The notes under the pieces were generated by a model. That model worked only from the letters and a program-made list of their open reading frames with translations, was not told where the DNA came from and ran no database searches. This document shows positions 24,382 through 62,051 of a stretch of DNA of 64,000 nucleotides, one piece after another. The position numbers were made by a program, and so were the translations under genes. Position 1 is the stretch's first letter. Every line of letters starts with the position of its first letter. Source of the stretch: Xestospongia bergquistia (taxonomy: Eukaryota > Porifera > Demospongiae > Haplosclerida > Petrosiidae); the NCBI GenBank assembly GCA_963965975.1, contig OZ014417.1, forward strand, positions 3,143,821 to 3,207,820. Reading direction: 5' to 3'.

Positions 24382-27300
24382 TCACATGTAGCTCAGCTCA
24401 TTTTCGTCATCAGATTCATTATGTTCTATGTTAAAATACTCATTATATAATTATATGATTGTATAACAGTTACCATTCCTCTCACTAGTTAACTTGGGAT
24501 CTTCAATCTACACAAGTTAATATATATCATTATCACAAAGTAGACCTATATATACTGACCTCATCAGAAAAATTCATCTGAGTTGTTCCAATGTCATATT
24601 CATTCTCAACAGTTCTTACATCTTCTCTGTGAGTATAATATATATTAACCAATCATATGTTCCATACAATATATTCAAACCTCAATGTAAATGATCTTAG
24701 AGGAACATCTGGAGCTGTATCATGAATTGGTAACTGAGTCAAAGGATTTATAGCAAAAACTGGCTCATCATAAATCAGATCTTGTCTAAATACAGTAATA
24801 CAAAAGTTATACTAATACAAGTTATAGTTTACTTCTGTTTTTTAGTTCTTTTTATAGTCCTCACAATGCATAAAACCAAAAGCACAAGTACAATTATGAT
24901 AACTAGAGCTGATCCAACAGGTATAGCAATTGATAAAATGGTGTCTCTATGAAGTCCTCCCTCAGCAGAATCAGTTACACTAGTTGCTATAATTTTGAAG
25001 TCAAAATGAAATGCAAATAGCCAAGTTGATTCAAACCATTATAAGTCCATACATTGTCAACTAAACAAATACATAATTTACTTACTATCTGTTTTAGACA
25101 ATGCTATAAGAACACTGGCATTATTTCCATTTCCTGCTCCATTTATTGCTCGAACCTGTACTGATGTTGAATATTACTTCCTTTAAACAATCATTTACCT
25201 TAAACTCATAGAATAGTCCAGGTACTAAACCAATAATTACTACTTGTAAATTTTCTGAAATAGGCACATTTCTTAAATAAGGTCCATCACGTTCAACCTA
25301 TGATAGTATCAACAACTATATACACACAATCAATTAATATTAATATTTTACTGTTGATCCTCCATATCCAGAGTAAATCACTTGATATCCAACTATAACT
25401 CCTTTAGCATCAAGTGGTGTTTTCCAAGTCAATAGAATTGTAGTATCATTTACAATAGTAGCTTTCAAAGATTGAGGAGGACTTGATCCTATAAATTGTA
25501 TTTATAGAGCAGATTATGATTCAGAAAGTAACTTACTATCTTCACTTGTAAAGAAATAATGTTCAGATGATAAAGGTCCCCAACCAACAACAGTTTTAGC
25601 TGCTATTTGTATACTAACATGTTCGTAGTATTGTAGTCCTATATATAATATGACAACTAATATGTCTTATTAATCAAAAGTATACAGACCGCTTTTAAAG
25701 AATGAAGTCTCCTCTTGTTGTAAGATATACTCTTTAGTCTCTTTTATTTCTATTCTTGTAAACAATACTCTATATCCAGTGATTATTCCATTAGCATCCA
25801 AAGGATCAGGTGGTAACCATGTTATATTGATAGAGGAAATACTAACACTAACAAGTGTTATATTGACAGGAGGTCCAGAAGGAGCTATAATAACAATTTC
25901 ATGTATGTACATATTGTCTAGCTACTGACCTGCTTGAGGCATTATTTGTGATATTGGAGTAGAAGGCAATCCACTTCCACCAGCATTAATAATATTGATT
26001 GAGAAGTTATAGTCATAATTCTCTTCTAATCCTTCAATTAAATATTGTTCAGGTTGTAATGGCTCCATTGCCAAACTAGGATCAGGATTGTTAGCTTGGG
26101 GCACAACAACAATATTGTTATCTTGTAATTCACAACTCCTTGTGATTCCTTCATTCGGACCTAGACAAATAGCAGTTATCTTGTAAGTATTAATTTTGCC
26201 CTTCCATTCTTTCTTGTTTGGAGGTTTCCAAGATACTCTTACAGATGTTGGAGACACTACCTCAAAAGAAATGTCTTTCACTGGAACTGTAGGAGCTTTA
26301 TATAATAAAGTGAAATACACCATATCACAATAACATCATTTACCTTCAGCATATGTAATATTGACTGTTGTTGAACTTCCAACTACTAGCTCTTCTAGTG
26401 CCAATATACCTGAATCACCTGAATATCCTGACCCCTTAATAACTGGAGAGAGATGAACTTTTACTTCAACTTGATAACCACCATAAGGTAACAGATCACT
26501 GATGTCATACTGCTGTGTCTCAGATGACAAGGTAAATACACCCAACACCTCTCCATATCCAGGGTAGTAGTCAAATCCATCTAATAGTTTATAACTTAGT
26601 TCATAACTAGTCACTTGATAATCAGATATTGAAGGAGCATTCCAAGTACAAAAGAGATTCTTTGAACTTGTTGGAAGACACTTAAGATTTTGTGGTGCAT
26701 GTAGAGCTACAAATAAAAACATCATCAATGATGTATATTGGCAAGCATTAATATAAGTTATACCTGGTTCATTTGTTGTTACCACTATCTTTTCACTAGC
26801 TGGTCCAGTACCTTCAGTAGTCACTGCAAATACTACTAGCTTGTAAGTTGATGAAACCAATAGTGGTTGAACTACATATGTAGTATTCGTGATGTCAACT
26901 ATAGTCACTTCTACACGAGGTGTTTTGATAGGAAATACTGTGTCTATCAGTTGATATATGATAGCAAAGCTTTGGATTACAGACTCAGGATCAAATGGAG
27001 TTTGCCATTGTAAATGTATCTCTGTAGCTGTAGTGATAGCAGTCAGTGAGTGAGGAGGACCAACTGGAGCTGTAAAAGATTCAATCATATTATTCATATA
27101 CATGTCAAGAAACTCACAATTTGTATATGTACTGACATAAGTCACAGCATATGGTCCACATCCAGCAGATGTATAAGCACATACTGTACAAGTATAGTGT
27201 GTATTGTTTTGAAGATCAAATAATGAGACACTTGTTCCTGATATTTTTATAGATATAGTGTGGTTATTTTGTCCAGAACAGGTTAATTCATAACCCAATA

Positions 27301-30300
27301 AAATACCATTATGATCTTCTTTAGGAGGAGACACCCAAGAGAGATGTAATGTTAAATTACTTTCTTTTTCACCCAAAAAGTTAGATGGAGATGATCCAGG
27401 ACCTGTAAATTAAGAAGTATTTGTGTAGCCAACCAGACAATATATCTATTGACTTACTTGATTCAGGCATTTGTATAATTACTGGTTCAGCAAATGGTCC
27501 TAACCCAACAGTAGATGCAGACACTAGTACACTATAAGTATGAAATGATTTCAACTCAGATAGTATAGTGTTAGTTTTATTGATCACTGAAACAGTTTGA
27601 GATGATTTTGTGTTAACATCATTAATAATGACAATATATTCTCTGATGACACCATTTTGTAAGGACATTATAGGTGGAAACCAGGTGACTATAAGAGAAT
27701 TATAACTCAATACTGTAATTGTAACATTAGTTGGTGGTCCAGATGGAACTAAAGATAAAGGAAAATGATTTTATGCTAAATAATAGTAGATGTATCTAAC
27801 CATCTTCTAGCATTTGAAAGAACTTAACAGCCTCAGGACTGGGATCAATTGTTATTGCTGTTACACTACATTTATAAATGTAAAATGGATGTAGATCATT
27901 GATATAAAGGACCAGTTCAGTAACATTATAAATCATTGTAGTATCACTCTGTGTGTCTAAAATAGTGACTATGTAGTGAACAATAACTCCATTTTGTTCA
28001 TCCAAATCTGGAGGGCTCCATTGTATAGTGACAGAAGATGAACTTGTTAAATTAACTAGTACATTCTGTGGTGCAACACTAGGTGCTGTGAAAAATAATA
28101 GTAATTTTTATTGAAAATTATTTCTTTCTAAGTGTACCTGCTTGATCAGTCTGTACTTGTACTTCATAGAATGGACCTAATCCAATAACTGTTGCTGCTC
28201 CCACTAACAACCTGTATTCATAATATGGATGAAGATTGCTTATAATCACATTTGATTTTAAGTTATCACTCCAACTTCCAATGGTATTATTGGTATTGAC
28301 TTCAAATACTACAATTGTGTATGATGTGATAATTCCATTTTGTTCATGTTCCAGTGGAGGGCTCCAATATAATTTAATAGCTGTAGCATTTAAAACAACA
28401 GCAGATACATTTTGAGGTTGTCCAGATGGTACTAAGTAAATAAATAAATAAATTATAACATCAAATTATTATAGATAATTACCATCTTGTGGAGTAGTAA
28501 TGGACTGCTCTGTTGAGAATGGTCCAATTGCTATAGTAACTGCAGCCACTACAACAGTGTATGTGTAGTGAGGATGAACATCATTTAATGAGACAGATGT
28601 ATCAGTGGTTTGAAAGTAAAGAGTCTGCGAGGTCTCCATAACAGATATATTGACAAAATAATACTGGATAATTCCATTGACTTTATTCACAGGAGGAGGA
28701 CTCCAAGATATGTTGATTGAGTGAGAGTTCATGGCAGTGATAACCAATAACCTTGGTGGACTACTGGGAGCTACAATAGAAAATACAACAAATTAACTAG
28801 CAGTATCATTTAAAAAACATACCTGCTTGTAATGTTTGTATAGTTACTATGTCACTGGTAGGACCTACTGATACAGTCACAGCAGCTACTGTACAGTTGT
28901 ATTGATAGTAAGGATGTAAGAAATTGAGGACAATAGATGTTTGTGATGTAAAGTTAGTGTGTGTTATGCCAGAGTTTATTTCTTGTGTAGTAATATCATA
29001 GCCAATTATTATTCCATTATGATTATTTTGAGGTGGTGGCTGCCAGTTCAATGTGAATGAATTTGATGACAAATTATTTGCCATTACATTTGAAGGAGAA
29101 GCAGAAGGTGCTGATATAAAAGATAACAAATATAGCATATATATGATGAAAACTTACCATCTTGTGAAGTTTGAAATGATAAGAAATCTGAGTTTGGTCC
29201 TAGTCCTTCATTAGTACTTGCTGCTACTGTAAATTTGTAGTTAGTATATGGAAGTAGAGCAGTTACAGTCAGTGTGTGGTTAGTGGTTGTATATGTCACT
29301 GTCTCTGAAGAGGTGATCTTAACAACTGTAACTGAATATCCTGTTATAACACCATTATGTTCAGGAGCTAACGGTGGACTCCAAGAGAGTAGTGCACTGG
29401 TTGAAGTTATAAAAGAAACAACAAGAGCATTTGGTGAAGCTGCTGGTACTGTATAGGATTTAAAGAATTGTATATATGTCTAAATGTCATCACTTACCAC
29501 CTTCAAGCATTTGAAATGAGATGTTAATAGCAGGACTAGAACCAACTGTTACAGCAACAACACTACAACTGTATGTATAAAATGGATGTAAGTTAGTGAT
29601 ATAGAAAGTTGTATTTTCTGATGTTAACAATGTTGACTCTCCAGTTTCAATGTTGCTTAGTGTGATGATATAATGTTGGATAACACCATTTAAGAGATGA
29701 GATTCTGGAGGACTCCAATGTAGTGTCACAGTAGAGGAACTAGTAATATTAACAATCAAGTGTCTTGGAGATCCGGTAGGAACTATAGAACATAACAATA
29801 GCAGTTTAGTCAATAATACATAATTACTTACCATCTTGTAATGTGTTCACATAAACAAATGAAGATGGACCTAATCCAACAGTGTATGCTGCTACTGATA
29901 ATTTATATTCATAATAAGGATGGAGTCCAGTTAAAGTGATACTACTGTGATAAATGTCTTGATGGACTTCATGAGTAGTGTTAGTGTTCACTTCAAATAC
30001 AGTGATAGTGTATGATTGTATCATTCCATTTTGATGATGAGATAAAGGAGGTTCCCATGATAACTGTATTTTAGTTGAGCTCACTGCAATGCCACTAATA
30101 TTTTGAGGTGGACCACTAGGAACTATAAACAATAAAGATGTAATAAATCAATTTAACATTACAATAATAAATTTCTTACTCATATTACATTAATTGTATT
30201 TATTACTAGAAGGACATTTTAATAATCTTACCACTAGATGGTGTTTTGATAGTGTATCCAATTGAATAGGGTCCAGTACCCACAGTAACTGCGGCAACTA

Positions 30301-33300
30301 ATACAGTATATGTGTAATATGGATGAAGTTCAGTAAGTAGTAGACTTGTACTATAGCTAATATACTGATAATGATCTAATGTTTCCATAACAGACACTGA
30401 AATAGTGTAACTTTGGATAATTCCATTGATCTGATCTATAGGAGGCTGTTCCCAAGTAACATTAAGAGTAAATGAGTCTACTGCTATCACAGATACACCA
30501 GTTGGTGAACCACTTGGAGCTAAAGTGACATGGTAATAAGTATAGAATAATATTTCATATTTTCTTACCAGCTTGTTTTGTTATTACAGTAAGTGCAGTA
30601 CTAAACGGTCCTGTTGACACAGTAACTGCAGCTATTCTACACTCATACATATAATATGGATGAAGAGAAGATACAGTGATTTCTGTATTTGTAACATTGT
30701 AATATAGTATTGTGCCAGTGTTGATCTCTTGAAGTGTTACCACATAACTTCTGATAATACCATTATGACTGTTGGGTGGTGGAGGTAGCCAAGATAGCTT
30801 TATTGTAGTTGATGTTACAGTTAGTACTGATACATTATTAGGAGATAAAGAAGGTGCTGTATATGAAGTAATACTAAAAAGGTGTGATCAGTGTCATTAT
30901 CATATACCTGATTCTTGTGTTTGAAATGTTAATAGATTGGAATATGGTCCTAGTCCAACTGATGTGAAAGCAGCAATTCTGTATTGATATATAGTATATG
31001 GGTGGAGTGAGTCAACAAAGATGGATACATTATGAGATACAAAATGGATCTCATGTCCAGTTGTAGTGTCAATAAGAGATATGTTATAGCCAGTTATCAC
31101 TCCATTATGTTCAGAAGATGAAGGTGGAAACCATTCAATATAAACTACTGCTGAGCTCTCTACTGTGACACTTGAACTTGCAGGAGGACTGGAAGGTACT
31201 ATATTTAAAAGAGATTAATAATAAATATGATAGTAATGATAGACATACCATCTTGTAATGTAGTAAAAGTCACAGGAGTTGAGAAAGGTCCCTTTTCTAT
31301 AGTGTAAGCTGCTACAGTTACACTGTATGTATAATATGGATGTAGATTACTAAGAATAATGTCTGTAGTAGTTGATGTAGTTTGATAATGGTATCCAGTA
31401 TTTGTCTCTGTTACATTCACTAGGTAGTATCTAATGATACCATTTTCATCTTCACTGGGTAACTCATCCCACATAATAGTAATGACTGTAGATGTTATAT
31501 GTGTAGATATTATATTATCTGGACCACTAGCAGGAGCTAGAGGCACAAAGGTATTAATAAATTAAATAATAATTATTATTGTATCACAAACCTTCTTCTG
31601 GCATTTGTATGACAAGGCTAGCCACTGGTCCATTCCCTATAGTCACTGCTGACACTGTACATTTGTATGTGTAATAAGGATGAAGGGTTGAAACTACTAT
31701 AGACATAGATGGTGTTATACTATAGAAAAGAGTGCCAGTTTCTTGTTCCACAATAGTTATATTGTAATATTGAATAATCCCATTAGTTCCAGATGGATTG
31801 GGAGGTGACCACTGTAATTGAAGACTAACTCCATTTATTGCTGATGCATTGAACTGTTCTGGAGGACTTGTGGGTACTGTAACAAGATATTACAACAACA
31901 ATTTGCATTTTATGTACATACCATCTTGAAGAGTGGTGATATTGAAGGTATTAGTAAATGGACCAGAATCAACAGTGATAGCAGCTACCTTTACACTATA
32001 TGTAGTATATGGACTGAGAACAGATATATTTAACTGAGTGTGGAGTGTAAAGAAAGTTAGGTCCACTCCAGACTTCACATTATGTACTATAACAGAATAT
32101 TCTCTAATAATTCCATTTTGTGTAAGTGCAGGAGGTGGATCCCATGAAATTAACAGTGAGGTAGAACTGGTTACTGACACAACCAATGACTGAGGTGGTG
32201 CAGATGGTGCTATATTTTAGGAACAATATTACAATTAATACAGTTGTTAGTACACTTACCAGCTTCTTCAGTTAGAACAGACACAGCCACTGTGTAAGGT
32301 CCTTCATCTACTGTGACAGCTACAATATAACAGTGATATATGTGGTAAGGTTTTAGTCCATCAATGATTATTTGAGTTTGATTGGTGATTTCTTGTACTT
32401 GAAGACCTGTCAATGCCTCTGTTACATTGATACGATATTCTCTGATGACACCATTATGATCTTGTAGAATTGGAGGATCCCAAGTAATATGGATACTAGT
32501 TGGACTAAGAGCTATACCATTGGGATGTTGAGGAGGACTATCAGGTGCTGTTGAAAGATTGAAGTAAATTTAAGATGTTATTAGTTACAGTACCTGCTTC
32601 CTTTGTTTGTACAAAGAACAAGTGACTAAATGGTCCAACTCCAATAGTTGTCTCAGCAGCTACTACACATACATATGTAGTATATGGATCTAGTCCAGTT
32701 ATTGTAATACTAGTCACAGTACTGTAATGCTGTATGGTTTCTAAAGTATCAGCATGAGTTACATTGATGACATAGCGAATGATAGCTCCATTTTGTTGGC
32801 TTGGAGGAGGTGGAGTCCACATCAGAGAAATAGAATAGGGTGTTGTGTTGTTAACAGACACGTCTTGTGGGAATCCACTTGGAACTATTAAGAATACATT
32901 TAAAAGTGTAAAAGACACTTGTCCATGAAGTAACTAACCATCTTCTGGTAAAGTAATATTAACACTAGTACTGTATGGTCCAGTTGCTATAGTGTAAGCT
33001 GCTACTGTAAACTGATATGTAAATGATGGGATCAGTGACCCAATGATAGCAGTAGTGCCAGTAAATGTTTGTGTCTGAGTTTCATTACTTCCTACTATTG
33101 AGATTGTTACTACATACTCTCTTATAATGCCATTATGATCTTGTGGTGGAGGAGGATCCCATTGAAAAGCCACTGTCCTGGAGTCAATTGCATAATGTGT
33201 AGCGACAATTGGAGGACTATTGGGAGCTGAATAGACAAGTATAAAATTCATTAATGATAATATTATTAGTTATCCTACCATCCTCTTGTGTTATTATAGT

Positions 33301-34266
33301 GAACAAAGTAGTAAATGGTCCACGTCCAATACTAGTCTCTGCTGCTACAATACATGAGTATGAAGTGTAGGGAATTAATCCAGTGATTGAAAAGGTAGTG
33401 TGTGTAGTATTGTAATACACACTTGTACCAGTCTCAATTAATGTAATGTTGACATAATATGAGATAATCAGTCCATTCCTATATTCAGGAAGTGGTGGAC
33501 TCCATGATAAAGTAATAGAAGTTGATGAAGATGCAATACCAGATAAACTTTGAGGAGCTTGACTTGGAGCTATTGGAAGAATATGGCAACATTTAAAGGA
33601 CATAATGGTTTACCTTCCTCAGCTGTTGTAATATTGATTGGATCAGAGTATGGTCCCAATCCTATAGTGTATGCAGCAATTCTATATTGGTAAGTATAAG
33701 ATGGATGAAGAGGTTGTATAGTAAGTGTAGTAGTGTAGGAAATATACTGGAAAATAGAACCAGTCTCAACTTCTACTACAGAAACACTATAGTAAATAAT
33801 GACTCCATTTTGATCATTATATCCTGGTGGATTCCAACTAATGGTAAATCCATTTGAAGTTATCAATGAAGTGAGGGCCATAATAGGTGGAGCTGAAGGA
33901 ACTGAGAGACAGAAATCAAATATTAAAGTAATATATATATAACGATGTGTTCTTATTAAAAACCCATTTACATACCATCTTGTGGAGTTGTAACTGTAAA
34001 GACAGCACTGTATGGTCCAATACCAACAGTGGTTTGAGCAGCAATAATACATACATAGTTCCTGAAAGGTCTGAGACCATTAACTGTTAGTGAAGTAGTG
34101 TTGGAAAAGAGAAGAAACATTTCGTTGGTCTCTAATATTGTGACATTGATGATGTAACCAATAATAATGCCATTTTGTTGATCAGGAGGAGGTGGAGCCC
34201 AAGTGAGTACAGCAGAGTAAGGGGAGGTAACTGTAGCATTAAAATTGTTTGGGGAACCACTGGGTG
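24382..34266 (-). repeat. Left arm of a large inverted duplication (D FN3-4 to stop)
   Basis: The arm runs from FN3-4 of gene D to its stop codon and pairs with 52122-62051 of gene F in opposite orientation. Coding and intron sequences are both conserved, with small indels. FN3-1 to FN3-3, just outside the arm, are clearly more diverged between the two genes. Confidence 0.8.
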
Positions 34267-37200
34267 CTACAATTATTATTATCATAATTAATAACAACAT
34301 ATAATAGAAACATACTAGCTTCATCTGTTTTGAAGGTAATTGGTTGTGAAAAAGGACCAGAGGATATAGTTACAGCACTAACTGATAGATTGTAATAATA
34401 GTTAGGATGTAGAGAATTAATGGTAATTGAATTGTTAGTGGAATAATTAGTAGATGTACTATTACTCAATATCTCAGTAATCTTTATAATGTATTCTCTG
34501 ATAATTCCATTTTGATTTTGAGGTAATGGAGGAAACCATGAAAGAAATATTGTATTTGAATCAATAACATGCCCAGAAATTGTAAGAGGTGAAGTAGAAG
34601 GAACTGCATGAAACAAAGTGAAGTAAAAGTTACTATATCATAACATTGTACTAACTTGCTTCAGGCATTGTGATGGATATATTTGTTGAAAATGGACCTT
34701 GTTCTACAGTGACAGCAGCTATTTGGAAGATGTAAGTGTAATATGGATGTAAAGAGGTAAGAACAATCCATGTGTTGTATGAAGTGAAGTTTTCACTGTA
34801 TCCTGTATTGATAACTCTCATCCATATTATGTAATATTGAATGATTCCATTATGATGCTCAACTGATGGTGCAATCCAGGATAAGTTTAAGGAAGTAGAG
34901 TTATAAACTTGTATTAATACATTTTGTGGTGAAGAGTTGGGTGCTTTAAACAATGTAATGAAATTAATAGTGTTTTCAATTGTACATACCTGCTTGAAGT
35001 GTTTCAATAGAAATGTAGTCAGAGTAAGGGTTAAGATAGCTGGTGAAAATGGCAACTCTACACAAATAAGTATAATAAGGATGTAAGGATTCTATAACTG
35101 CTAATTGTTCAACAGAATGGTAAGTAATGGTTTGACCAGATTCCAGGTCTTCAATTTCAATTATGTAATAATTAATATAATCTGTGATGTTATTTGGTTG
35201 AAGTGGTAAAGTCCATGATAGCTTAATAGATGAGGCACTTGCAGCAATTCCCGAAACATTTTGAGGAACAGCTTTATGTGAAAAGTTATGCACATTATAT
35301 AGTAAGAGAGTTTACTTACCACCACACCTATTGGTTGATAGCCAGACCAGTTTCCATTGGCATTACAAACTCTTATAGATTCTCCAACATGTCTATATCC
35401 ACTGTCCATACAAATATATATGGCCGTACTATTGTATGTAGTCGAAGGGAAGTTTACAGTTAAGTTTCCATAGTAACCAGACACTATATTCAAGTCACCA
35501 CAATCAACAACTGTTGACAATTAAGAACAACAATAGTTAATATTTATTTTTCCATACTTTGACACTGTGCAGGTTGTCCACTCCAACTTCCATTAACCTG
35601 GCATACTCTCTGAGATGTACCTACTAAATTGTATCCTGTACCACAACTATAGGCAGCACTGCTGTTATATGTAGTGCTTATGTATGATATTGACATTGTT
35701 GTAAAATTAATTGCATGTATCATTGGAATACCACAGTCCACAACTATATCAATAAGGAATATGTTATAACACAATAAGTGTTTTCATGCTGACTTTGACA
35801 TTGAGGTGGCTGCTCACTCCATAGTCCATTAGGTAAACAAGTACGCTGTATATTGCCAACTAAATTATAGCCAATTCCACAACTGTATGTTGCTACACTG
35901 TTATAGGTTGTTAATATATATGTAATAGAGAGTGTGATGGAATTTACAGGAGGTGAACTTGGTATTCCACAATCAATTACTGAAATTATAAAATTATATT
36001 GGTTTGAAAACTGCCTCTCTTTGTTTACTTTCACAGTGGGGTACTGCTCCATTCCAATTTCCATTCACTCCACAGATTGTTGTATTTTCTCCAATGAGAT
36101 TATAACCAATATTACATAAATATGTAGCAGTATTGTTTACAATAGTGTCATTGTAGTTGACAGTTAGTCCTCCAATAGCTCCAATAGGTACATGTGGTAT
36201 CCCACAATCGACAACTGTATATAAAAGTGGAATAAGTTTGTATAATGATTAATTTGATTGTTGACCTTGACATTGAGGAGGGATCCCACTCCAACTGCCA
36301 CTTGCAGTACAAGTTCGGTTTGGACTTCCAACCAGATTATATCCTACATTACAACTGTAGGTGACTGTACTACTATAAGTCAAGGTGGAATATATGACAC
36401 TCAATCCACTTGAATTAACAAGTGGTAAATCAGGCACTCCACAACTAATCACTGAAATAATTAACTTCAATAAAGTCATCATCTACAGTCTTAACTCACA
36501 TTGACATGAAGGGACTGTTCCTGTCCAAGTACCATTTACTGAACAAACTGATGTAGCTTCTCCAATGAGTTGATAACCAATACTGTTACATGAGTATGTA
36601 GCAGTACTGTTTACAATAGTGTTGCCATAATTAGCAGTAAGTCCTCCCACAGCTCCATTAGGTACATATGGTTCACCACAATCAACAACTAAATTTGCTC
36701 TAAGAATTAAAAAAAATTTCAAATTACTGACCTTGACATTCAGGTGCATTGCCACTCCAGCTACCACTTACAGTACAGGTTCGAGTTGGATTTCCCACAA
36801 GATTATAACCACTAATACAACTATAGGTTACTGTACTACCATAAGTCACAGTGGAATAGACAAGATTTAATCCATATGAATTAACTGCTGGTAGACCAGG
36901 CACTCCACAATTAATTACTACAATTAATAACCAGATAATAACATATATATGTACACTGATAATACATACATTGACAATAAGGTGTAGTTCCTCCCCAGGT
37001 ACCATTAGATGTACAAACACGTTGTGAGTTCCCAATTAGTTCATATCCTACTTGAGTACAAGAGTATTGGGCAATACTGTTATATACAGTATTAGATACT
37101 GTTAATGAAAGACCTCCAGGTTGAGATGGAGGTGAAGATAAAGATCCGCAATCAACCACTACACATACAAAATAAAACTTAATTCTTGTTGTTATAATTC

Positions 37201-45927: not shown

Positions 45928-45932
45928 TTAAA

Positions 45933-46660: not shown

Positions 46661-46664
46661 AACT

Positions 46665-47205: not shown

Positions 47206-47285
47206 TCACTACATACTTATCTTGCACTTGATCAACATTAATTAACAGTTTTGTTTTAAAATTGAAATATGAAGATGCATAATAC

Positions 47286-48769: not shown

Positions 48770-51700
48770 TATGCATATTATAAATTAGTTTAATGCAAGC
48801 TAGCGCGCAACTTCACTGTTAAAACGGTGCGTTTTTAGTCCAGCCGTTGTTGATTTATATTTATATTCTATAAATCAAAACAGTCATCCTTAAAGGTCCA
48901 TACCAAAAGGGCGTGTCATGCTATGGAGTATGAAAATTGTTCCGGGGAACCACTTACAGCGTGTAGTACACGAATGAAACTTTATTTTACATATTGATCC
49001 CTAAGTAAAATGTCTTGTGTACTAGCAGCCTAGTAGTGATGATGAGCAATTCTGCCTGCTCCTCTTGATCTTTGCTTTTCGTAAGTAAGTAATCAAAGTA
49101 TATAAGCATACGTATTTATTCACTTATTGTCATACAAAAGGACTAATAAGTCACTTTTGATGAGTAATTAAGCTAGGGATTACAGTACAGCCTTATTACA
49201 ATAGACGCTGTTGTCACCTACTATGCACTACAATATCTTTAATTTTATCAAGATGAGTTTGCCAACCTTTCCAATTAAGGAGTGGAAGATGGAGTTTTTA
49301 GACTCAATTATAACATACATCTATAGTTGTCTTATGATTGTAATGTTATCACCAGCTATAATATAATAATTATAGCTAGTTACACATATGCATACTGACT
49401 AGACTTAGAATGAAGTAGATGAGTTTGACCACATATTATGTAAGAGCATGCATTCATCTTATTAAAGTGACAGGCATTATGACACATGTACAGCTAGTAG
49501 TGCTGGCATGTAACCTATAGAGTTACTTTAAGTGGGTAACAGCAAAATCATTTAATTTTCTGAATTAATTTTAGAGATCTTTATACAATTTCAAGCATTG
49601 CATGTTATGATAAACACATGGTCTTTCTAACTGCTATATATGAGAATGTGACAGTCACTAGCTGCGTATGTATGACCTAACAAAACAATTAAATCTACTA
49701 CAGTTACATGAGAAACTTCTGTTAATTATATTTATTTATTTGTACAGATTGTGATGTTAGTGCATTGGATCTTTTCTTTGTGATGGACGCTTCAGGAAGT
49801 GTTAGTTACTCCAACTTTCAAACAATGAAGACCTTTGTACGTGATATTGCTAATAGCTTTGAAATAGGACCAAATGATGTACAGGTTGGAGTTATGTCTT
49901 ATGGATCATATAACTCATTTCATTTCTACCTAAACACATATTCCACAAAATCTGCTGTTTTGTCGGCAATAAGTGCACTTCCATACAGTGGAGGAGGTAC
50001 TAACACAGCTGGAGCACTTAATGGAGTTCGAACAACAGGTTTTTCTCAATCTAATGGAGCTCGTCCAACTAGTGAAGGAATTCCACGTGTTGCTGTAGTG
50101 ATTACTGATGGATATTCTAACAGTTACTCAGCAACAGTCACTGCAGCTAATGCACTGCATAACGCCGGAATAATAGCATTTGCTATAGGAATTGCAGGAG
50201 CAAACCAGAATGAACTCAATGCTATTGCATCTCAGGCCTCTTATGTCTCATTTATTTCCAGTTTCAATGTGGCTCAACTAAGTGCCTTGCAAATATCCAT
50301 TAGTCAAGAGGCTTGTGTAGGTAAGTTAGTTTTTTAGTGTTTACATTAAATATACATATTTTACAGCTTAACCTGACCTTTCTATTGATCAAGTTGTGTC
50401 TGATACCATTGATCAGGGTCAAACCAAGTATGTCAATTATCCACTTCCAGCTAATGATGAAGGCATTACAATTGTACTTAATGTTTCAAATGGATCTGCA
50501 GTAGTTTATGCATCTACAGTTGTGTCAACTCCTAATGAAGCATTCCATGATGTCAAAATTGAGTCAAGCCAATTTGAAGATGTTTATATTGATCCAAACA
50601 ACTTAACCAATCCAGACACTGCTGATACAGTATATATTGCAATTGAAGGGCAAGGTATATCTAATATGATCCAAGTAAGTGCATCTCAAGGAGACATTTC
50701 AACAGGTATGTTATGAAATGAATTTGATTATATATTACTGGATTCCTTTTCACACTATAGAACCAGTCACAGTAAGTAACTTGCCAGATGTTGTATCTGA
50801 AAATTATGGGCAAACTGTAAGTGTTTATTGCACAGTTAGAGGTAAACCTCAACCCACTGTAACATGGTACAAAGATAGTGTTCTGATTAATTCACTAACA
50901 TATCCTGATATTCAAATAACAACTACAGTAGTAGATAACACTACTGTACAAAGTGGAATAACTATAACTTCTATAACTGACACTAATGAAGGCACCTATA
51001 CATGTTCAGGATCAAATATTCTTCCAAATGGAACAGTAACAAACAATAGATCATTCACTTTAGAAGTGACTGGAAGTAAGATTTAATATATTAATCATGC
51101 ATATTTACCAATGGGTATATTGTTGACAGTTATACCAATCAACTTCACTGGAATTGCTGTGAGCTCAACAGCTATATATCTTTCGTGGTCTTTGCCTCTA
51201 GTACATGGAGTCAATGTTCAACACTACATTGTAGAAGTAGATGAGATAGAGACTAGTCGAGACTGGACATTTTATGCTGTTGAGACTTATGCCAATGTCA
51301 TATCTCTACATCCATACTATACATATGTTTGCAAAGTTGCTGCAGTTGAGAATATAACCTATCCCTACACAAGTCCAATTACTGTTATAACACATCAAGC
51401 AGGTATTCATTTCAATTAGCATAGAAAATAAATTATTTTTGCATAGCTCCCACTGGTACTCCTCAAAATCCAATACATAGTTCTATATCATCAACTACAC
51501 TTAATTTAACTTGGTATCCACCACCAGTCAGTCAACAGAATGGTATCATAAACTATTACATAATACAATCAACTGAAGTGGAGACTGGCATAACTCGTCA
51601 ATATACAACTAACAATGCATGGATCTATTTGACTAATCTTCATGCTTATTACAGCTATATATTTAAATTTGCTGCTGTCACAATTGCACAAGGTCCTTTT

Positions 51701-54700
51701 AGTACTGGAACAACCATCACTATGCCTGAAGATGGTAAGTGGTATTTGCATTAATAAATTTATGCCATTTTGATCTAATACAGTTCCTTCTTCACCACCA
51801 ACAAATGCATCAGTATCAATAATAAATTCTAGATCTATTTTTATAACTTGGTTTCCACCACCTTTTGATCAACAAAATGGACTAATAAGAGAATATGAAA
51901 TAATTATTGAAGAGATTGAGACTGGTATAATTTACATGGATACATCTCTGAATCTGTATATTCAGATTGACTACATTCACCCACACTATACCTATAACAT
52001 TTCAATCAGTGCTGTAACAATAGCATCAGGACCATACACAACTGCAGTCACAATTCAAACACCTCAAGATGGTAAGTCAAAAGCCAATCATTTCAAAATT
52101 AGATTAATATAATTTATACAGCACCCAGTGGATCACCAGATAATTTTAATGCTACAGTTACCTCCCCTTACTCTGCTGTACTCACTTGGGCTCCACCTTC
52201 TCCTGATCAACAAAATGGCATTATTATTGGTTACATCATTAATGTTACAATATTAGAGACCAATGAAACCTTTCTTCTCTTTTCCAACACTACTTCACTA
52301 ACAGTTAATGGTCTCAGACCTTTTAGGAACTATATATGTATTATTGCTGCTCAAACCACTGTTGGTATTGGACCATACAGTGCTGTCTTTACAGTTACAA
52401 CTCCACAAGATGGTATGTAAATGGATTTTTAATAAGAACACATCATTATATATATATATTACTTTAATATTTGATTTCTCACTCTCAGCTCCTTCAGCTC
52501 CACCTAACATGGCCCTTATTTCATCGATAACTTCAAATGGATTTACCATTAGTTGGAATCCACCAGGATATAATGATCAAAATGGAGTCATTACTTACTA
52601 TAGTATTTCTGTAGTAGAAATTGAGACAGGCTCTATTTTCCAGTATATTTCCTACACTACTACAGTTACTATACAATCTCTTCATCCAGCTTATACTTAC
52701 CAATATAGAATTGCTGCATACACTATAAGATTGGGACCATACTCTGATCCAATTAATATTACAACAGCTGAGGAAGGTATACACCTTAATGTACAGTACG
52801 CCCTTGTAATGTTGCTATATTCTTCCAATAGCTCCAAGTCAAGCTCCTCAAAGTTTATCTGGTGTTGCATCTTCATCAACGTCTATTACTTTATCATGGA
52901 GTCCACCACTTCCTGAATATAGGAATGGACTGATTATCTCATATTATGTCAACATTACATTAATTGAGACTGGTACAAGTGTGTATTACACAACTACACA
53001 CACTACCTTTTCAATCACTGGATTAATTCCCTACACTTCATACTCCTGTATTGTAGCAGCAGAGACTAGTATTGGACGTGGACCATTTACTACTTTCTTC
53101 ACTATTACAACACCAGAGGATGGTATGATAACTAATAATGATCTATGAATTTTATACTTGTCTCTTCAGCTCCCAATAGTCCTCCAATTATTACTACACA
53201 TTATGCAATTGACTCTACCACAGTGGCTTTTCAATGGGATCCTCCTCCACCACAAGATCATAATGGCATTATAAGAGAGTATGTAGTAACAATCTCAATA
53301 GTAGGAAGTAATGAAAGTCAGACACAAATATTTACTGGCACTACTGCTATCATTGGGTCACTGATCCCATCATTTACATATCAGTTTACAGTAGCAGCGT
53401 ACACTATAGCAACTGGACCATACAGTGCCAGTGTTAATATTACTTTACCAGAAGATGGTTAGTTACTTCAAAGGACAAGTATCTTTATCATTTTTAAATG
53501 TATTCTTAATAGTACCAAGTGGATTCCCACAAGACGTGTCTGTTAATAACACAACACCCTATTCTATTTCTTTGACATGGACATCACCTCCTCCAAACCA
53601 ACAAAATGGAGCTATTGTTGGTTACTTTGTTAATGTCACTCATGCTGATACTTTAGAAACCATACAGTATTACAGTACTATGACTAGTATTACTATAACT
53701 GGACTAGATCCATATACTACATATGTATGTGTAGTAGCTGCTGAGACAACCATTGGAGTTGGACCATTTAGTCACTTGTTCTTTGTACAAACAGAAGAAG
53801 CAGGTACCATCACTTTATATTTTGATTTAATTTATTCAATCTATTGACCAGCACCTGACAGTCCTCCTCAACACCCCAGTGCTATATCTCTTAGTCCAAC
53901 AAGTATTCACATTACTTGGGATCCTCCAATTCTACAAGATCATAATGGTGTCATTAGAGAATATCGTATCAATATAACAGAGGCATTGACAGGTCTTCAA
54001 ATACAAGAGATCACCAATCAAACTCAAATAATCATTGATGGACTAAAACCTTACCACATATATCACTGTTATATTGTAGCTGTCACAGTAGATGAAGGAC
54101 CTTACACAGTGGCTGTGTCTGTTCTAACTGAAGAAGCTGGTAAGTGTACTAACAATTATATTAATTGTAATCTTATTCTTAAAATATAGCACCATCTGCA
54201 CCACCTCAGTCATTGATTGTGTCAGTAACCAGTTCTACTTCACTGTTAATTTCATGGGATCCACCCCCTGCACATACACAAAATGGAATTATTAGAGAAT
54301 ATTCTGTTATAGTACATAATGTAAAGTCTGGAGTGGACCTAACTTTCTTTACACTCCACACTCAGTTAAATATATCTGTTCTCAGTCCATACACTACATA
54401 TAGTGTAAAGGTAGCTGCTATCACTGTTGATTCTGGTCCATTTACTAATACCTTCAATATCACCACTCTTCAAGATGGTATGTACATAAAGTGCTAATTG
54501 TTGTTGTAATGTCTTGTTACAGTACCCACAAGTCCTCCAGAACAGTTCAATGCATCAGCAGTAAATGGAATTAGTCTTCAATTACAGTGGTCACCTCCCA
54601 ATCCATCTGGAACTAATGGAATTATTCAATACTACAATATAACTATTTTAGAACAAGAAACTGGCAATGTTTTCTATAGTATAACACCATCTATGTCTAT

Positions 54701-57700
54701 AGTAGTTTCAACCCTTCATCCTTATTACACATACAAGTGTACAGTGTCAGCAGTGACTATAGGGAATGGACCAGTGGCTAGTCTTGTCATACAAATGCCA
54801 GAAGAAGGTTTGTGACACAACTATTTAATTTATAAATATCTTTCTACATATAGCTCCTGCTAGTGGTCCAGATAATGTATTATCTGCACATATAACATCT
54901 ACAGTCATTACTATTATGTGGGATGAGTTACCCAATGAAGATAAAAATGGTATCATTAGATACTACCTAGTGAATGTAACAGAGACAAATACTGGATACC
55001 ATTATCAAACTACATCAACTACTTCAGACATTACTCTTAGTAATCTACATCCATATTATACATACAGTATAACTGTAGCAGCTTACACTATAGAAGAGGG
55101 ACCTTTCTCTACTCCTGTGACTTTTACTACATTACAAGATGGTATGTCTATCATTAGTATCACATGTGTTATTAATCTCTTTTAAATATAGTACCTTCAA
55201 GTTCTCCTACAAGTTTAAGTATCACAGTAAAGAGCTCATCAGTTGTTTATATTGAGTGGTTTCCACCTCCATCATCTGAACAAAATGGAGTGATAACTGG
55301 CTATAATATATCTCTTATTGACATTACAACTGGACATGAAATGTATTTTGTGTCTCATAATGTATCAATTTCAGTTGATTCACTCCACCCATATACTATA
55401 TATCAATACAGAATTGCTGCATTCACATCAGTTGGACTAGGACCATATTCCAATCTATTTACATTTCAAACACAAGAATCAGGTATATGATAATTACATT
55501 GATCAAATCTTTTTAGTGTTACTTAATGTACAGCACCTTCTTCATCTCCTAAGAATGTATCAGTAGTAACTATAACATCAACTACAATAAAGCTATCTTG
55601 GCTACCTCCACCACCCAACAGTCATAATGGTATTATCAGAAGTTATGTGGTAACACTTCAAGAGATCAACACTGGCACAACACTATATTACAATGTTACA
55701 GATACAGAAATCACTGTATTTTCTCTTCATCCATATTATATGTATGAGTGTAGAATAGCTGCAGTTACTGTGTCAACAGGACCATTTAGTACTGCACTTA
55801 CTGTAATAACAATACAAGCTGGTAAGAAAATATGAAATATTATTCTATACTTATTACCATATCACTTTAGCTCCAAGTGGTCCACCAACTGGTGTAGCTG
55901 TGATAGCAGTAGACTCATTCACCCTTAATGTTACTTGGGGACAACCTCCTATAGATCAGATCAATGGAATTATCCAAAGTTACACTATTTCAGTGTCTGT
56001 TATGGAAACATTAGATCATTATCAGTATATCAGTTATAGTACAAGTCTACTACTTACTGATCTTCATCCATATTACACATATACTGTATTAGTTGCTGCA
56101 GTTACTGTAGATACTGGACCTTATTCAATTGGATACACTATCAAAACACCATCTAGTGGTAAGTTTATTAAAGTGTCCTTCTAGTAATAAATACAATTAA
56201 TATAGTATAAGTAAGAAATTAAAACAAACAAGACAAAGTCTAATTAAAATGTGTCATTTATATATTGAATTGATTTACTACATGTTCATTGTTTATAGCT
56301 CCTAGTGGTCCACCTCAAAACATTAGTGGCATTGCAGTGAGTTCAACTAAAATACAGTTATCATGGGAACCTCCTTTATCTCATCATCAAAATGGAATGA
56401 TACAATCATACACTATCACTGTATTTGAAGTGAACACTAACACTACTCATGAAGTCCATCAAGACATTTATCATAGTAGTATCACTTTAACTGGACTCCA
56501 TCCTTATTATGAATATAAATTATCAGTAGCAGCATATACTGTTGGATTAGGTCCATCTTCATTTGTTTATGTGACCACATTACAAGATGGTAAGTAATTA
56601 TGTATTATTGACTAAACTGCTATTGTTATGTTCTATAGTTCCTACCGGATCTCCAAGATATTTGACTGTCAATATTACTAGTTCCTCTACTGTGACACTA
56701 CATTGGAGTCCTCCAGAATCTCATCTCTTAAATGGCGTTATCCAACATTATGTCATCACACTAAGCAACATTGAAACTGGACAGTCAACATTGTTGACAT
56801 CAGAAAATACAACTTTCTATATCACTAACTTACATCCATTTTATACATACAGTTGTAGTGTTGTTGCTGTAACAGTTGGTTCTAGTCCTGCTATTAACAT
56901 CTCATTTCAAATGCCTGAAGATGGTAAGTGACAAAGTTTAGACATAATTATATACAATTCTTTAAATCCTATACAGTACCATCAGCTTCACCAAATGCTC
57001 TTGTTGTATCTTTTATAACTTCAACCAGTGCATTACTCTCTTGGAGTCCACCATTAGCTCCTGAACATAATGGTGTTATAACAGGATATTCAGTTACAGT
57101 TGTTAAGATCACCTCTTCAGAGACAGTGACATATACAACCACTAACCTCACACTGACTGTAACTGCTCTACTTCCATATACTAACTACAAGTTTACAGTA
57201 GCAGCAAGTACTAATGAAGGACTAGGACCAAACTCAGATTTCTTATCATTTCAAACTTCACAAGATGGTAAGTTTTCATCATATTTATGCTATATTTGTT
57301 ATCTTTTATATCAGCACCTTCTGCTTCTCCTTCAAATGTAATGGCAAATAATGTGTCATCAAATTCATTCACATTGAACTGGCAGCCACCACCTCAAAAT
57401 ACTCATAATGGAATAATAATTGGCTATGATATTACTACACAAGAAATAAACTCTGGCATAACATACACTAACTTTACATCACATACATCTATTGTCCTCA
57501 ATTTCTTACATCCTTACTATCAGTACAACTGTACAGTAGCTGCTGTGACAGTATCAGTAGGTCCTACCAGTGACATAGTAACTATACAAACATTACAAGC
57601 AGGTATGTTTTTAAATGATACTGCTAGTTAAATTGTTGTATTTTTTATCGTAGCTCCCAGTAGTCCACCTAGGTTATTGGTTATCACTGCTATGAACTCT

Positions 57701-60700
57701 CACTCAATCAACATATCTTGGAGTCCTCCTCCAGTGGATAAAGTCAATGGAATTATCCAGTATTATTTTGTCAATATATCTGTTATGGAGACCTCGCAGA
57801 CTCTTTACTTTCAAACCAGTGATACATCTGTCTCATTAAATGATGTTCATCCTCACTACACATACACTGTTGTAGTGGCTGTAGTTACTATAGCAATTGG
57901 ACCATTCTCAACAGAGCAGTCCATTACTACTCCACAAGATGGTAATTATCATAGTTTGATGTTATAGTTTATTTATTTATTTACTTAGTACCATCTGGAC
58001 AACCTCAAAATGTATCTGCTGTTGTTTTAAATGCTACAGCTATTCAATTGTATTGGAGTCCTCCACTGGAACATGAACAAAATGGAATTATCACATCATA
58101 CACAGTTGTAGTATTTGAAGTCAATACCAATAGTACCATTGGAAGTTGGAGTGATAATTTAAAGTCAAATGTGATTATAAGCAATCTTCATCCATATTAT
58201 GAATACAGGTTGTTAGTGGGAGCAGCAACAGTTATTGGATTAGGTCCATTCTATGAAGTACAAGTACAGACTGATCAAGCAGGTACACTTAGAAAGAAAT
58301 AATTTTCAATAAAAATTACTATTATTTTTTACAGCACCTAGTGTTGCACCACAGGATGTACTAGTTAATGTAACAAGTTCATCTTCTGTCACTATACAAT
58401 GGAGCCCTCCAGATTTGGATGAACAAAATGGAGTTATTGTTCACTACATAGTCACTATTTTAGACACACAGAGTGATACTACAATGATTTATAATGTTAC
58501 TGAACTAGTCCTTTATATCAATGATCTACATCCATTTTACATTTATAAATGTAGTGTAACAGCAATAACAATTGATCCCAGTCCTGAGGCTGTTAAAATC
58601 TTTCAAATGCTAGAAGATGGTTAGATACATCTACTATTGTTTAGCACAAAAATTATTTCTTTTATCTTTAGTTCCATCTGGACCACCAACTAATGTTACA
58701 GTCACAGTATTGAGTTATAATTCTCTTATAGTCACCTGGTTTCCACCTATAATGTCCTTACAAAATGGTATCATCAGAGAATATACTGTCATTATTAATG
58801 ATGTTAACACAAAATCATCTCAAACTGTTTCAGTGATCAATAAAACTAACACTATAATATCTGAGTTGAAATCGTTTCATACTTATAGTGTACTAGTGTC
58901 TGCATCTACTGTTGGGTTAGGACCATTTGCTGAACCAGTAATTATACAAATGCCTGAATCAAGTATGTCAATAAATATATTGTCTGGTTGGCTACACAAA
59001 TACTTCTAAATTTACAGGTCCTGGATCATCTCCATCTAACTTTTTGGCTGAAAAAGAAAATAATTTGACATTACATCTCTCTTGGGTGTCTCCTCCTAAA
59101 GAAGATCATAATGGTATTTTATTGGGTTATGAATTAACCTGTTCTGGACAAAATAACCACACTATATCTATAAAAATATCAGGAACAAGTGTCTCATTAT
59201 TTGATCTTCAAAACAATACACACTATACTTGTACAGTATGTGCTTATACATCTGCTGGATGTGGACCATATGCTGTGACTTATGTCAGTACATATACAAA
59301 TTGTGAGTTTCTTGACATGTATATGAATAATATGATTGAATCTTTTACAGCTCCAGTTGGTCCTCCTCACTCACTGACTGCTATCACTACAGCTACAGAG
59401 ATACACTTACAATGGCAAACTCCATTTGATCCTGAGTCTGTAATCCAAAGCTTTGCTATCACATATCAACTGATAGACACAGTATTTCCTATCACAACAC
59501 CTCGTGTAGAAGTGACTATAGCTGACATCACAAATACTACATATGTAGTTCAACCACTATTGGTTTCATCAACTTACAAGCTAGTAGTATTTGCAGTGAC
59601 TGCTGAAGGTACTGGACCAGCTAGTGAAAAGATAGTGGTAACAACAAATGAACCAGGTATGACTTATATTATTGTTTGCCAATATACATCATTGATGATG
59701 TTTTTATTTGTAGCTCTACATGCACCACAAAATCTTAAGTGTCTTCCAACAAGTTCAAAGAATCTCTTTTGTACTTGGGAAGCTCCTTCAATATCTGATT
59801 ATCAAGTGACCAGTTATGAACTAAGTTATAAACTAGTAGATGGATTTGACTACTACCCTGGATATGGAGAGATTTTGGGTTTATTTACCTTGTCATCTGA
59901 GACACAGCATTATTACATCAGTGATCTGTTACCTTATGGTGGTTATCAAGTTGAAGTAAAAGTTCATCTCTCTCCAGTTATTAAAGGGTCAGGATATTCA
60001 GGTGATTCAGGTATATTGGCACCAGAAGAGCTAGTAGTTGGAAGTTCAACAACAGTCAATATTACATATGCTGAAGGTAATCATATTATTGTGATATGGT
60101 GTATTTCACTTCATTTCAACAGCTCCTACAGTTCCAGTGAAAGACATTTCTTTTGAGGTAGTGTCTCCAACATCTGTAAGAGTATCTTGGAAACCTCCAA
60201 ACAAGAAAGAATGGAAGGGCAAAATTAATGTTTACAAGATAATTGCTACTCGTCTGGGTCCTAACCAACAAATTGAGAAGAGAGCCGAACCACTAAACAA
60301 TATTATTACTGTATTACCTCAAGCTAACAATCCTGATCCTAGTTTGGCAATAGAGCCATTGCAATCAGAACAATATTTAATTGAAGGATTAGAAGAGAAT
60401 TATGAATACACCTTCTCAATCAGTATTATCAATGCTGGTGGAAGTGGATTGCCTTCTACTCCAATATCACAAATAATGCCTCAAGCAGGTCAGTAGCTAG
60501 ACAATATATACATACATGTAATTGTTATTATAGCTCCTTCTGGACCTCCTGTCAATATAACACTTGTTAGTGTTAGTATTTCCTCTATCAATATAACTTG
60601 GTTACCACCTCATCCTTTGGATGCTAATGGAGTAATCACTGGATATAGAGTATTGTTTACAAGAACAGAAATCAAAGAGACTACAGAATATATCTTACAA

Positions 60701-62051
60701 TCAGATGAGACTTCATTCTTTAAAAGTGGTCTGTATACTTTTGATTAATAAGACATATTAGTTGTCATATTATATATAGGACTACACTACTATGAACATG
60801 TTAGTATACAAATAGCAGCTAAAACTGTTGTTGGTTGGGGACCTTTATCATCTGAACATTATTTCTTTACAAGTGAAGATAGTAAGTTACTTTCTGAATC
60901 ATAATCTGTTATATAAATACAATTTGTAGGATCAAGTCCTCCTCAATCTTTGAAAGCTACTATTATAAATGATACTACAATTCTATTGACTTGGAAACCA
61001 CCAGTTGATGCTAAAGGTGTTATAGTTGAATATCAAGTGATTTACTCTGGATATGGACGATCAACAGTAAAATATTAATTTTAATTGATTGTGTGTATAT
61101 AGTGATTGATACTATCATAGGTTGAACGTGATGGACCTTATTTAAGAAATGTGCCTATTTCAGAAAATTTACAAGTAGTAATTACTGGTTTAGTACCTGG
61201 ACTATTCTATGAGTTTAAGGTAAATGATCACTTAAAGGAAGTAAGATTTAACATCAGTACAGGTTCGAGCAATAAATGGAGCAGGAAATGGAAATAATGC
61301 CAGTGTTCTTATAGCATTGTCTAAAACAGATAGTAAGTAAACTATGTATTTGTTTAGTTGACAATGTATGGACTCATAATGGTTTGAATCAACTTGGCTA
61401 TTTGCATTTCATTTTGACTTCAAAATTATAGCAACTAGTGGAACTGATTCTGTTGAGGGAGAACTTGGTAGAGACACCATTTTATCAATTGCTATACCTG
61501 TTGGATCAGCTCTGGCTGTCATAATTGTACTTGTGCTTTTGGTTTTATGCATTGTGAGGACTATAAAGAGAAATAAAAAACAGAAGTAAAATATAACTTA
61601 TATTAGTATAATTATTGTATTACTGTAATTAGACAAGATCTGATTTATGATGAGCCAGCTTTTGCTATAAATCCTTTGACTCAGTTACCAATTCATGATA
61701 CAGCTCCAGCTGTTCCTCTAAGATCATTTACATTGAGGTTTGAATATATTGTATGGAACATATGATTGGTTAATATATATTATACTCACAGAGAAGATGT
61801 AAGAACTGTTGAGAATGAATATGACATTGGAACAACTCAGATGAATTTTGCTGATGAGGTCAGTATATATAGGTCTACTTTGTGATAATGATATATATTA
61901 ACTCGTGTAGATTGAAGATCCCAAGTTAACTGGTGACAGGAATGGTAACTGCTATACAATCATATAATTATATAATGAGTATTTTAATATAGAACATAAG
62001 GAATCTGATGATGAAGAGGATGAAGAAGAAAATGAGTTGAGCTACATGTAA
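48204..62051 (+). CDS. Gene F: lysozyme-like - VWA - beta domain - Ig - 29 FN3 - TM - short acidic tail (giant)
   Basis: Exon 1 (48204-48769): signal peptide METKTIMLAIFLLILLSLLQ, then a domain with RRIAYVETHDG and NGGIWQLSE, reminiscent of the Glu...G-G-(I/L)-x-Q core of lytic transglycosylases and goose-type lysozymes. Exon 2 (49748-50320): VWA with MIDAS motif DASGS, GGGTNT and ITDGYS. Exon 3 (to 50705): beta-rich domain (TIDQGQTKYVNYPLP, VYASTVVSTPNEAF). Ig exon 50761-51075 (VYCTVRG, WYKDS, GTYTCSG). FN3 array 51130-61332. TM exon 61432-61585 (IAIPVGSALAVIIVLVLLVL), tail exons 61633-61737, 61792-61858, 61911-61944 and 61993-62051, ending ENELSYM-stop. About 3,500 residues. Expected at the cell surface. 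Exon 3 has an early in-frame TAA if the first acceptor is used. Confidence 0.82.
48895..49740 (+). other. Long first intron of gene F
   Basis: The intron 48770-49747 is about 980 bases, far longer than the 40-110 base introns elsewhere. No ORF or repeat stands out. The corresponding part of gene E is deleted from about 48893 to 50503 in F coordinates. Confidence 0.55.
51130..61332 (+). repeat. 29-module FN3 exon array of gene F
   Basis: Exons: 51130-51402, 51447-51734, 51784-52071, 52122-52412, 52489-52776, 52832-53122, 53170-53457, 53513-53803, 53852-54139, 54190-54477, 54523-54807, 54854-55141, 55192-55482, 55534-55821, 55871-56158, 56299-56589, 56639-56923, 56977-57267, 57315-57602, 57654-57941, 57989-58282, 58335-58619, 58672-58962, 59018-59302, 59351-59656, 59714-60076, 60123-60488, FN3-28 in two exons (60534-60728 and 60780-60891) and FN3-29 in three (60930-61066, 61121-61219 and 61263-61332). 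Exons 1-27 are phase 1-1; only the last two modules are split by internal introns, as in D. LHPYYTY recurs in most modules. The modules occur in the same order as in gene D. Confidence 0.85.
52122..62051 (+). repeat. Right arm of the large inverted duplication (F FN3-4 to stop)
   Basis: Pairs with 24382-34266. The arms are about 9.9 kb each and lie about 17.9 kb apart. Differences are mostly single substitutions; C, D and F also share the tail exons. Confidence 0.8.

Follow-up and report, generated by a model that had tools for sequence, protein, structure and literature searches.

Multigene receptor arrays whose members exchange sequence are already known, as in the clustered protocadherins, where a variable part is combined with a shared part and gene conversion homogenises the cluster. 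Among early-branching animals, the allorecognition complex of Hydractinia holds the Alr family of clustered surface receptors, counted at 41 members in the available part of the source (PMC11999971), and predicted receptors of Halichondria panicea, as far as the available text describes them, carry sushi, FN3, Ig and NIDO domains (PMC8242945). Here we describe an array of predicted giant receptor genes in the sponge Xestospongia bergquistia through two of its members, the divergent genes D and F, which lie in a 64,000-nucleotide stretch of contig OZ014417.1 (hereafter C7; the window, C7:3143821-3207820, within a 146.5-Mb genome of 21 contigs). A sponge source is in keeping with the mix of domains, with introns of ~50 bp and with exactly two nuclear-receptor zinc-finger matches, the number that Amphimedon has. 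Coordinates without a contig prefix are in window numbering, and negative values or values above 64000 fall outside the window on the same contig. Two unrelated heads, one of NIDO and sushi domains (NIDO class) and one opening with a lysozyme-type domain (L class), stand on one FN3 stalk with one transmembrane segment (TM) and tail. On balance, and with reasonable rather than high confidence, we favour the view that the array is a recombining family of giant receptors with these two head classes and this common stalk, TM and tail, that its members exchange stalk sequence, and that it probably serves in the handling of bacteria.

The likeness to the protocadherins lies in a variable part joined to a shared part that is homogenised within the cluster; the difference is that there the shared part is supplied from common exons by splicing, whereas here each gene has its own copy of the stalk. 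With Alr, the locus shares the clustering of a surface-receptor family in an early-branching animal, but not the V-set/I-set Ig ectodomain: NIDO-sushi or lysozyme-VWA-Ig heads stand on 0-60 FN3 domains, and of the two genes D has a head of NIDO and sushi domains while F has a single Ig among other domains. The same sushi, FN3, Ig and NIDO domains recur in the H. panicea receptors, but the word "lysozyme" occurs 0 times in the main text of that report, the available part of which describes no shared-stalk array (PMC8242945). What is less common is so clean a record, within one cluster, of two unrelated heads, one stalk, a breakpoint placed to ~20 bp and stalks of 0 to ~60 FN3 domains. A lysozyme-headed FN3 receptor was not found in the literature searched, which consisted largely of titles and the beginnings of abstracts, and neither was a report on Porifera joining allorecognition through polymorphic Ig-like receptors with a chromosome-level assembly. 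A phage-related lysozyme-type tip on a predicted membrane receptor bears on how early-branching animals deal with bacteria.

Gene D (24382..38364, minus strand) comprises a NIDO domain, nine sushi domains, 29 FN3 domains, TM and tail in 3,793 amino acids (aa) and 50 exons, and gene F (48204..62051, plus strand) a lysozyme-like domain, a VWA domain, an exon h1, an Ig domain, 29 FN3 domains, TM and tail in 3,577 aa and 41 exons. Each is one open frame with its stop exactly at 24382 (D) or 62051 (F), and all introns are GT-AG (49/49 in D, 40/40 in F). Exon models for both came from a splice-aware predictor trained on the window and were then mended by comparison among copies; complete open frames were checked for D and F alone, the remaining genes of the array being predictor models. 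The D head (35316..38364) opens with a signal peptide recognised by eye and continues with NIDO exons to 37462 (Pfam, E-value 1.3e-52) and nine sushi exons (Pfam; 37404-35316). In F, a lysozyme-superfamily exon, again with a signal peptide by eye (48204..48768), is followed by the VWA exon (49748..50320; Pfam VWA, 1.2e-43), in which the DxSxS motif is present as DASGS, by h1, which has no match in the Pfam scan (50394..50705), and by the Ig domain (50761..51075; Pfam Ig_3, 1.4e-13). Self-BLAST gives no match between the two heads, in agreement with an earlier note on this DNA that had called them unrelated.

Beyond the heads, both genes continue with three FN3 domains specific to their class (FN3-1 to FN3-3; D 34316..35271, F 51130..52071), a shared stalk of FN3-4 to FN3-29 (D 25086..34266, F 52122..61332), and TM and cytoplasmic tail (D 24382..24986, F 61432..62051), the latter with a basic stop-transfer sequence, an IYDEP motif and the ending ENELSYM in D. 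The earlier note had spoken of the same 29 FN3 exons in both genes; the FN3 series, TM and tail are indeed the same, but the 29 domains occupy 32 exons, since FN3-28 takes up two of them and FN3-29 three. All ten FN3 units scanned with Pfam matched fn3 (10/10), and the other units were counted through exon homology. Sponge aggregation factors are characterised by Calx-beta repeats and a Wreath domain; the parts scanned here (the head segments of both genes, the tail and ten FN3 units) gave no Calx-beta match.

Along the two arms, divergence changes abruptly at the boundary between FN3-3 and FN3-4. In 250-bp windows, identity is 61.1% and 57.2% just before the step, rises to 90.5% at D 34300 / F 52095 and stays mostly at 91-100% over the following 10 kb, introns included, with two exceptions (86.7% and 84.7%), so that the arms are 94.5% identical across 10.1 kb, TM and tail included. 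The proportion of differing synonymous sites (pS) between D and F is 0.70, 0.62 and 0.74 in FN3-1, FN3-2 and FN3-3, values that are saturated, and 0.01-0.19 in FN3-4 to FN3-27, for which the pooled synonymous (Ks) and nonsynonymous (Ka) divergences are 0.073 and 0.029. Intron identity follows the same course (54-66% before the step, 66-100% after it). A sharp step had been predicted at D 34266 / F 52122, and class-diagnostic columns place it there to within ~20 bp; the gradual profile that had been named as the contrary outcome is not seen. The accompanying claim of near-identity from FN3-4 onwards, introns included, stands for most windows but is too even: pS reaches 0.17-0.19 in FN3-8, FN3-13 and FN3-27 and is ~0.015 in FN3-12, FN3-14 and FN3-24. 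Ka/Ks exceeds 1 in FN3-12, FN3-14 and FN3-25, where Ks is just 0.010-0.028, and positive selection is not claimed.

D and F are two of 13 head-bearing copies in an array of ~210 kb (about -24000 to 186000), mapped by placing their exons across C7:3103821-3337820, with smaller fragments left out of the copy count. The head is of the NIDO-sushi kind in seven copies (A0, A, B, D, H, J and R) and of the lysozyme type in the other six (E, F, K, M, P and Q). By the exon map, A0, A, B and H lack FN3 altogether, K has 3 and E has 13, while D, F and P have 29 each; J has about 29, some of them repeated, and Q has 39, with FN3-13 to FN3-17 in three copies. M is cut off inside FN3-5. The predictor model R (161116-185861, C7:3304936-3329681, outside the window) has ~60 FN3 and ~6,700 predicted aa; it contains three copies of a 16-FN3 module of 6.1 kb that are 97.7-98.5% identical.

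This step characterises the whole family. Cross-class pS is 0.60-0.80 in FN3-1 to FN3-3 (15-20 pairs per exon; D, J, R and fragment G1 versus E, F, M, P and Q) and 0.00-0.18 in FN3-4, FN3-5, FN3-6, FN3-7 and FN3-10 (20, 12, 12, 12 and 16 pairs), where it overlaps the within-class range; all cross-class pairs tested have it, including J and R against L-class genes. In the FN3 tree the D and F copies of FN3-1 are sisters (support 0.99), as are those of FN3-2 (0.96), while the placement of FN3-3 is not settled, and by this placement FN3-1 and FN3-2 are positional homologues across the classes. The cross-class pS pattern and this sisterhood therefore mean that the head-proximal block split in place at an early date and that, further along the stalk, most of the class signal has been wiped out.

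Within the stalk, conflict between adjacent informative sites is lower than after shuffling (P = 0.001 in FN3-4 to FN3-10, 0.013 in FN3-11 to FN3-16 and 0.001 in FN3-20 to FN3-29; 1000 shuffles, so that 0.001 is the lowest attainable P), and by this test the stalk is a mosaic among array copies, as expected under recombination. Trees of successive segments disagree with the head classes: FN3-4 to FN3-10 (9 rows) unites D, E and F (support 100/100) and rejects NIDO-class monophyly (approximately unbiased test, p-AU = 1.9e-7), FN3-11 to FN3-16 (6 rows) unites D and F (100/99) and again rejects it (p-AU = 6.6e-5), and FN3-20 to FN3-29 (6 rows) places D with a headless fragment, A0t (100/98; p-AU = 0.0065 against D with R). 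Judged by these groupings D is a chimera, a NIDO head on a stalk whose FN3-4 to FN3-16 group with F. Twenty-nine columns tell F, P and Q apart from J and R; in these, D has the L state at 34258, the NIDO state at 34256, 34253 and 34249, neither at 34247 and the L state at 34246, after which it is mostly L-type with four further NIDO-type columns (states clustered; runs test P = 0.006). Because the diagnostic states switch at 34249/34246, we place the boundary of the exchange in D, from few columns, within the first ~20 bp of FN3-4 (junction 34246..34266, minus strand), where identity and Ks also step. With one assembly, crossover or swap and conversion may account equally well for the D/F data.

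The lysozyme-type exon of F matches the phage protein family phrog_3108 (PHROGs, 3.3e-10; paralogues elsewhere in the genome, 1.3e-13 and 1.1e-11), and the profile of that family finds nine places in this genome and none in 14 control genomes. A structure predicted with AlphaFold2 from the sequence together with 38 viral relatives reached a predicted local distance difference test score (pLDDT) of 94.6; a single-sequence prediction (pLDDT 37) was discarded. Ranked by structure, lytic transglycosylases come first, and the top 19 of the 50 matches listed are cell-wall or chitin hydrolases; among PDB sequences, six of eight weak matches to the L profile are lysozyme-like enzymes, and a profile built from this genome's rows alone gave nothing useful there. 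Glu44 is invariant in 40/40 alignment rows and lies in the model at the end of a helix (residues 31-45) followed by short strands (59-60 and 65-66); it aligns with the Glu of RES in g-type lysozyme and of IES in gp144, both of which we take to be catalytic. Curated Pfam lysozyme/SLT models match 0/14 members of the L family, and comparison with g-type lysozymes gives E-values of only 0.08-0.28. By model and alignment, then, the L head is a lysozyme-superfamily domain of a family shared with phages that keeps the aligned catalytic Glu, and the related phage family probably cuts bacterial cell walls.

Relatives in phrog_3108 include Gp54 of phiKO2, S144_44 of Shewanella phage 1/44 and proteins of the viral contigs IMGVR_UViG_3300009104_000231 and 3300020461_000555. 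They have the same domain as the L head, with the invariant Glu, G..Q and W, but occur free or at the C-terminus of longer phage proteins, whereas the L head has a signal peptide and is fused to VWA, Ig and FN3 domains. In one of the longer proteins the domain adjoins an internal virion protein match (1e-4). Gp54 sits between a pair of small proteins in which hydrophobic segments are recognised by eye, a placement that by analogy might be like that of an endolysin; phiKO2 appears in tables of two-component spanin systems in the available part of the source (PMC6139136). Fourteen L sequences of this genome, including 48204-48768, 38795-39358, L031, L032, L036 and L037, form one clade beside a viral contig, which suggests one transfer of the domain from a phage-like source. 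Searching phages by tblastn returned one record for the L head of F and 20 for paralogue L031, and further viral scans recovered only the query's own phage. Across 84,980 prokaryote genomes the L profile gave 27 candidate stretches and no confirmed relative, a scan made with narrow patterns, so that absence is not implied. In three paralogues of the domain, L033, L034 and L035 (on C1, C4 and C14), the catalytic Glu is replaced (VMSKDG-type), and these are perhaps binding-only forms.

For metazoan g-type (GH23) lysozymes such as placozoan PLys, horizontal transfer from bacteria has been proposed in the available parts of two reports (PMC12855814, PMC11576321). The L head resembles them in its modelled lysozyme-type fold and aligned catalytic Glu; it differs in matching phrog_3108 and no Pfam lysozyme, and in tipping a giant predicted transmembrane receptor. 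As far as the available texts go, the literature on sponge lysozymes disagrees: one report finds the g-type in a single homoscleromorph sponge but in no demosponge, and mentions an i-type enzyme in Suberites (PMC11576321), while the other counts GH23 lysozymes as present in sponges within a metazoan family derived from bacterial transfer (PMC12855814).

The earlier note had offered a head swap or gene conversion between the two arms. The data speak for recombination, though for recurrent exchange across a 13-copy array and not for a single event between the two arms. A single recent swap between D and F, by one crossover or conversion between inverted arms, would agree with the finding that no other NIDO/L pair is as similar over 10 kb as D and F, at 94.5%, although the margin is small (D/P 93.6-94.1% and D/Q 93.1-93.9%, over shorter stretches), and with the union of D, E and F in FN3-4 to FN3-10. 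We nevertheless regard it as improbable, since J and R, too, are set off from L-class genes by this step, the nearest relative of D varies along the stalk (F, P, R, Q and A0t), and the strongest shared runs of D in FN3-4 to FN3-10 are with R and then P (uncorrected P = 0.0005 and 0.0015) and not with F (uncorrected P = 0.023, 0.041 and 0.098 in the three stalk segments). Less credible still is an assembly artefact in which the arms were mis-joined from haplotypes or collapsed repeats. Places prone to such error do exist, such as the six identical 250-bp windows of E and F and the three near-identical modules of R. An error is unlikely, however, because the arms differ by ~5.5% and carry different heads; both frames are complete with all splice sites intact, and a copy ~0.95 Mb away has L-class architecture beside a NIDO fragment.

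Concerning function, the earlier note had expected a diversifying recognition system. An allorecognition role, in which heads would be polymorphic between individuals, stalk exchange would make new combinations and the common tail would signal, fits a clustered family of surface receptors built from Ig, FN3 and sushi domains, with exchange between paralogues and variable copy structure. Average Ka/Ks among copies is nevertheless only 0.16-0.59 across the head exons, exceeding 1 in 8/192 head-exon pairs, and within the L-class head it is lowest in the two pieces of the L exon (0.30 and 0.16); because of these exon averages diversifying selection on the heads is not indicated, and the diversifying role is not borne out by these comparisons. 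Rows were counted after hits covering <90% of an exon had been dropped, and the Ka/Ks comparisons leave out second and later copies inside one gene and copies with an in-frame stop (one each in d3, FN3-8, FN3-9, FN3-10, FN3-11, FN3-20 and FN3-22). One of the heads, moreover, is of lysozyme type and has retained the catalytic Glu, and no motif resembling an immunoreceptor tyrosine-based activation or inhibition motif (ITAM, ITIM) is seen by eye in the common tail. The tail motif IYDEP is similar to a Crk SH2 site, but copies B and P have lost it, and we make no signalling claim from it for that reason. Allorecognition accordingly seems unlikely to us, and adhesion, itself doubtful, is rated somewhat above it: FN3 rods with differing tips would serve cell-cell or cell-matrix contact, and stalk homogenisation would be concerted evolution only. 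VWA, NIDO and sushi domains are common in adhesion proteins, the rods have 29-60 FN3 domains, and Ka/Ks is below 1 in most exons, but adhesion leaves unexplained both the conserved phage-related head and the short forms, B and H, in which a head runs straight into the exons of the same tail.

A lysozyme-type head with phage relatives points towards bacteria rather than towards self and non-self, and judged from sequence the handling of bacteria is probably the likeliest of the three roles, with adhesion second and allorecognition last. In the recombining family that we favour, each head class (NIDO with sushi; lysozyme-type with VWA and Ig) has its own FN3-1 to FN3-3 on the common stalk, TM and tail, while repeated ectopic exchange between phase-1 FN3 exons, by conversion, unequal crossing over or both, would remove class differences from FN3-4 onwards and also alter stalk length. 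Displayed on cells, receptors of the L class would carry, at the end of a long stalk, a tip that binds bacterial walls and cuts them, those of the NIDO-sushi class would bind another ligand, and both would anchor or signal through the same tail, in the handling of food, symbiont or pathogenic bacteria. A more specific account, which we offer only tentatively, holds that a muralytic domain of phage lineage was captured once, spread to at least 14 places and came to sit on the tips of receptors with 3-39 FN3 domains. The array would then be a set of cassettes with a recombination barrier between FN3-3 and FN3-4, its common stalk, TM and tail renewed by exchange and its heads and stalk lengths recombined with the signalling end kept, for wall cutting at the cell surface.

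Gene E (38795..44443, plus strand), which the earlier note had missed, lies between D and F and carries the head exon of F, an Ig domain and 13 FN3 domains, without VWA, TM or tail. It has an 11-bp gap relative to F in FN3-11, and its codon at the position of the F ATG is not ATG, the next in-frame ATG being at 38813. The E and F stalks are 99.2% identical over 5.0 kb (39483-44443 versus 50501-55472), with the six successive windows of 100% identity at 39733-41232, a tract that may reflect a very recent duplication, a conversion tract or an assembly copy. Tandem repeat arrays with 39-, 44/49-, 52- and 128-bp units lie at 44482-47452, between truncated E and F. D and E start divergently from a 430-bp intergenic region (38365..38794), in which a shared bidirectional promoter is possible from the arrangement. 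All six other L-head genes tested (F, K, M, P, Q and C7:4135171) have similar sequence upstream, where M, P, Q and the 4.135-Mb copy also retain a remnant of the D first exon, of which F has only a part and K nothing. The head-to-head arrangement recurs, mostly with its NIDO partner cut down to the first exons, and the unit from which these genes arose was probably a NIDO/L pair set head to head.

Among the shorter predictor models, gene B (15708..18644, minus strand) joins a NIDO-sushi head to the common tail with no FN3 stalk, gene A (3783..6591 or, with its predicted C-terminus, 3088..6591; minus strand) has a NIDO-sushi head with neither FN3 nor the common tail, and gene A0 (-24002..-19968) likewise has a NIDO-sushi head, A0 and A being predicted to end in a membrane segment and tail other than the common one. 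A 25-base pattern from the tail exon occurs eight times genome-wide at <=3 mismatches, always on C7. The outlying cluster at C7:4134018-4160816, ~0.95 Mb away, contains an L-head gene at 4135171 with 10 FN3 domains (the last partial) and the tail, which faces the NIDO-head fragment, and a second partial L head at 4160274.

The heads are shuffled more widely than the array. At C7:1321450 a predicted model has an L domain before IgGFc-binding-like and Ig domains (the latter names by eye), and at C1:3387200 another has a NIDO-sushi head before Ig domains (Ig by eye). Genome-wide, 151 NIDO matches were scored, many of them exon pieces, with large clusters of NIDO exons at C1:23.57-23.91 Mb, C5:2.10-2.20 Mb and C8:1.60-1.65 Mb. 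Outside the receptor genes, the minus strand of the window has an open stretch of 652 aa, rich in charged and polar residues, at 1220-3178.

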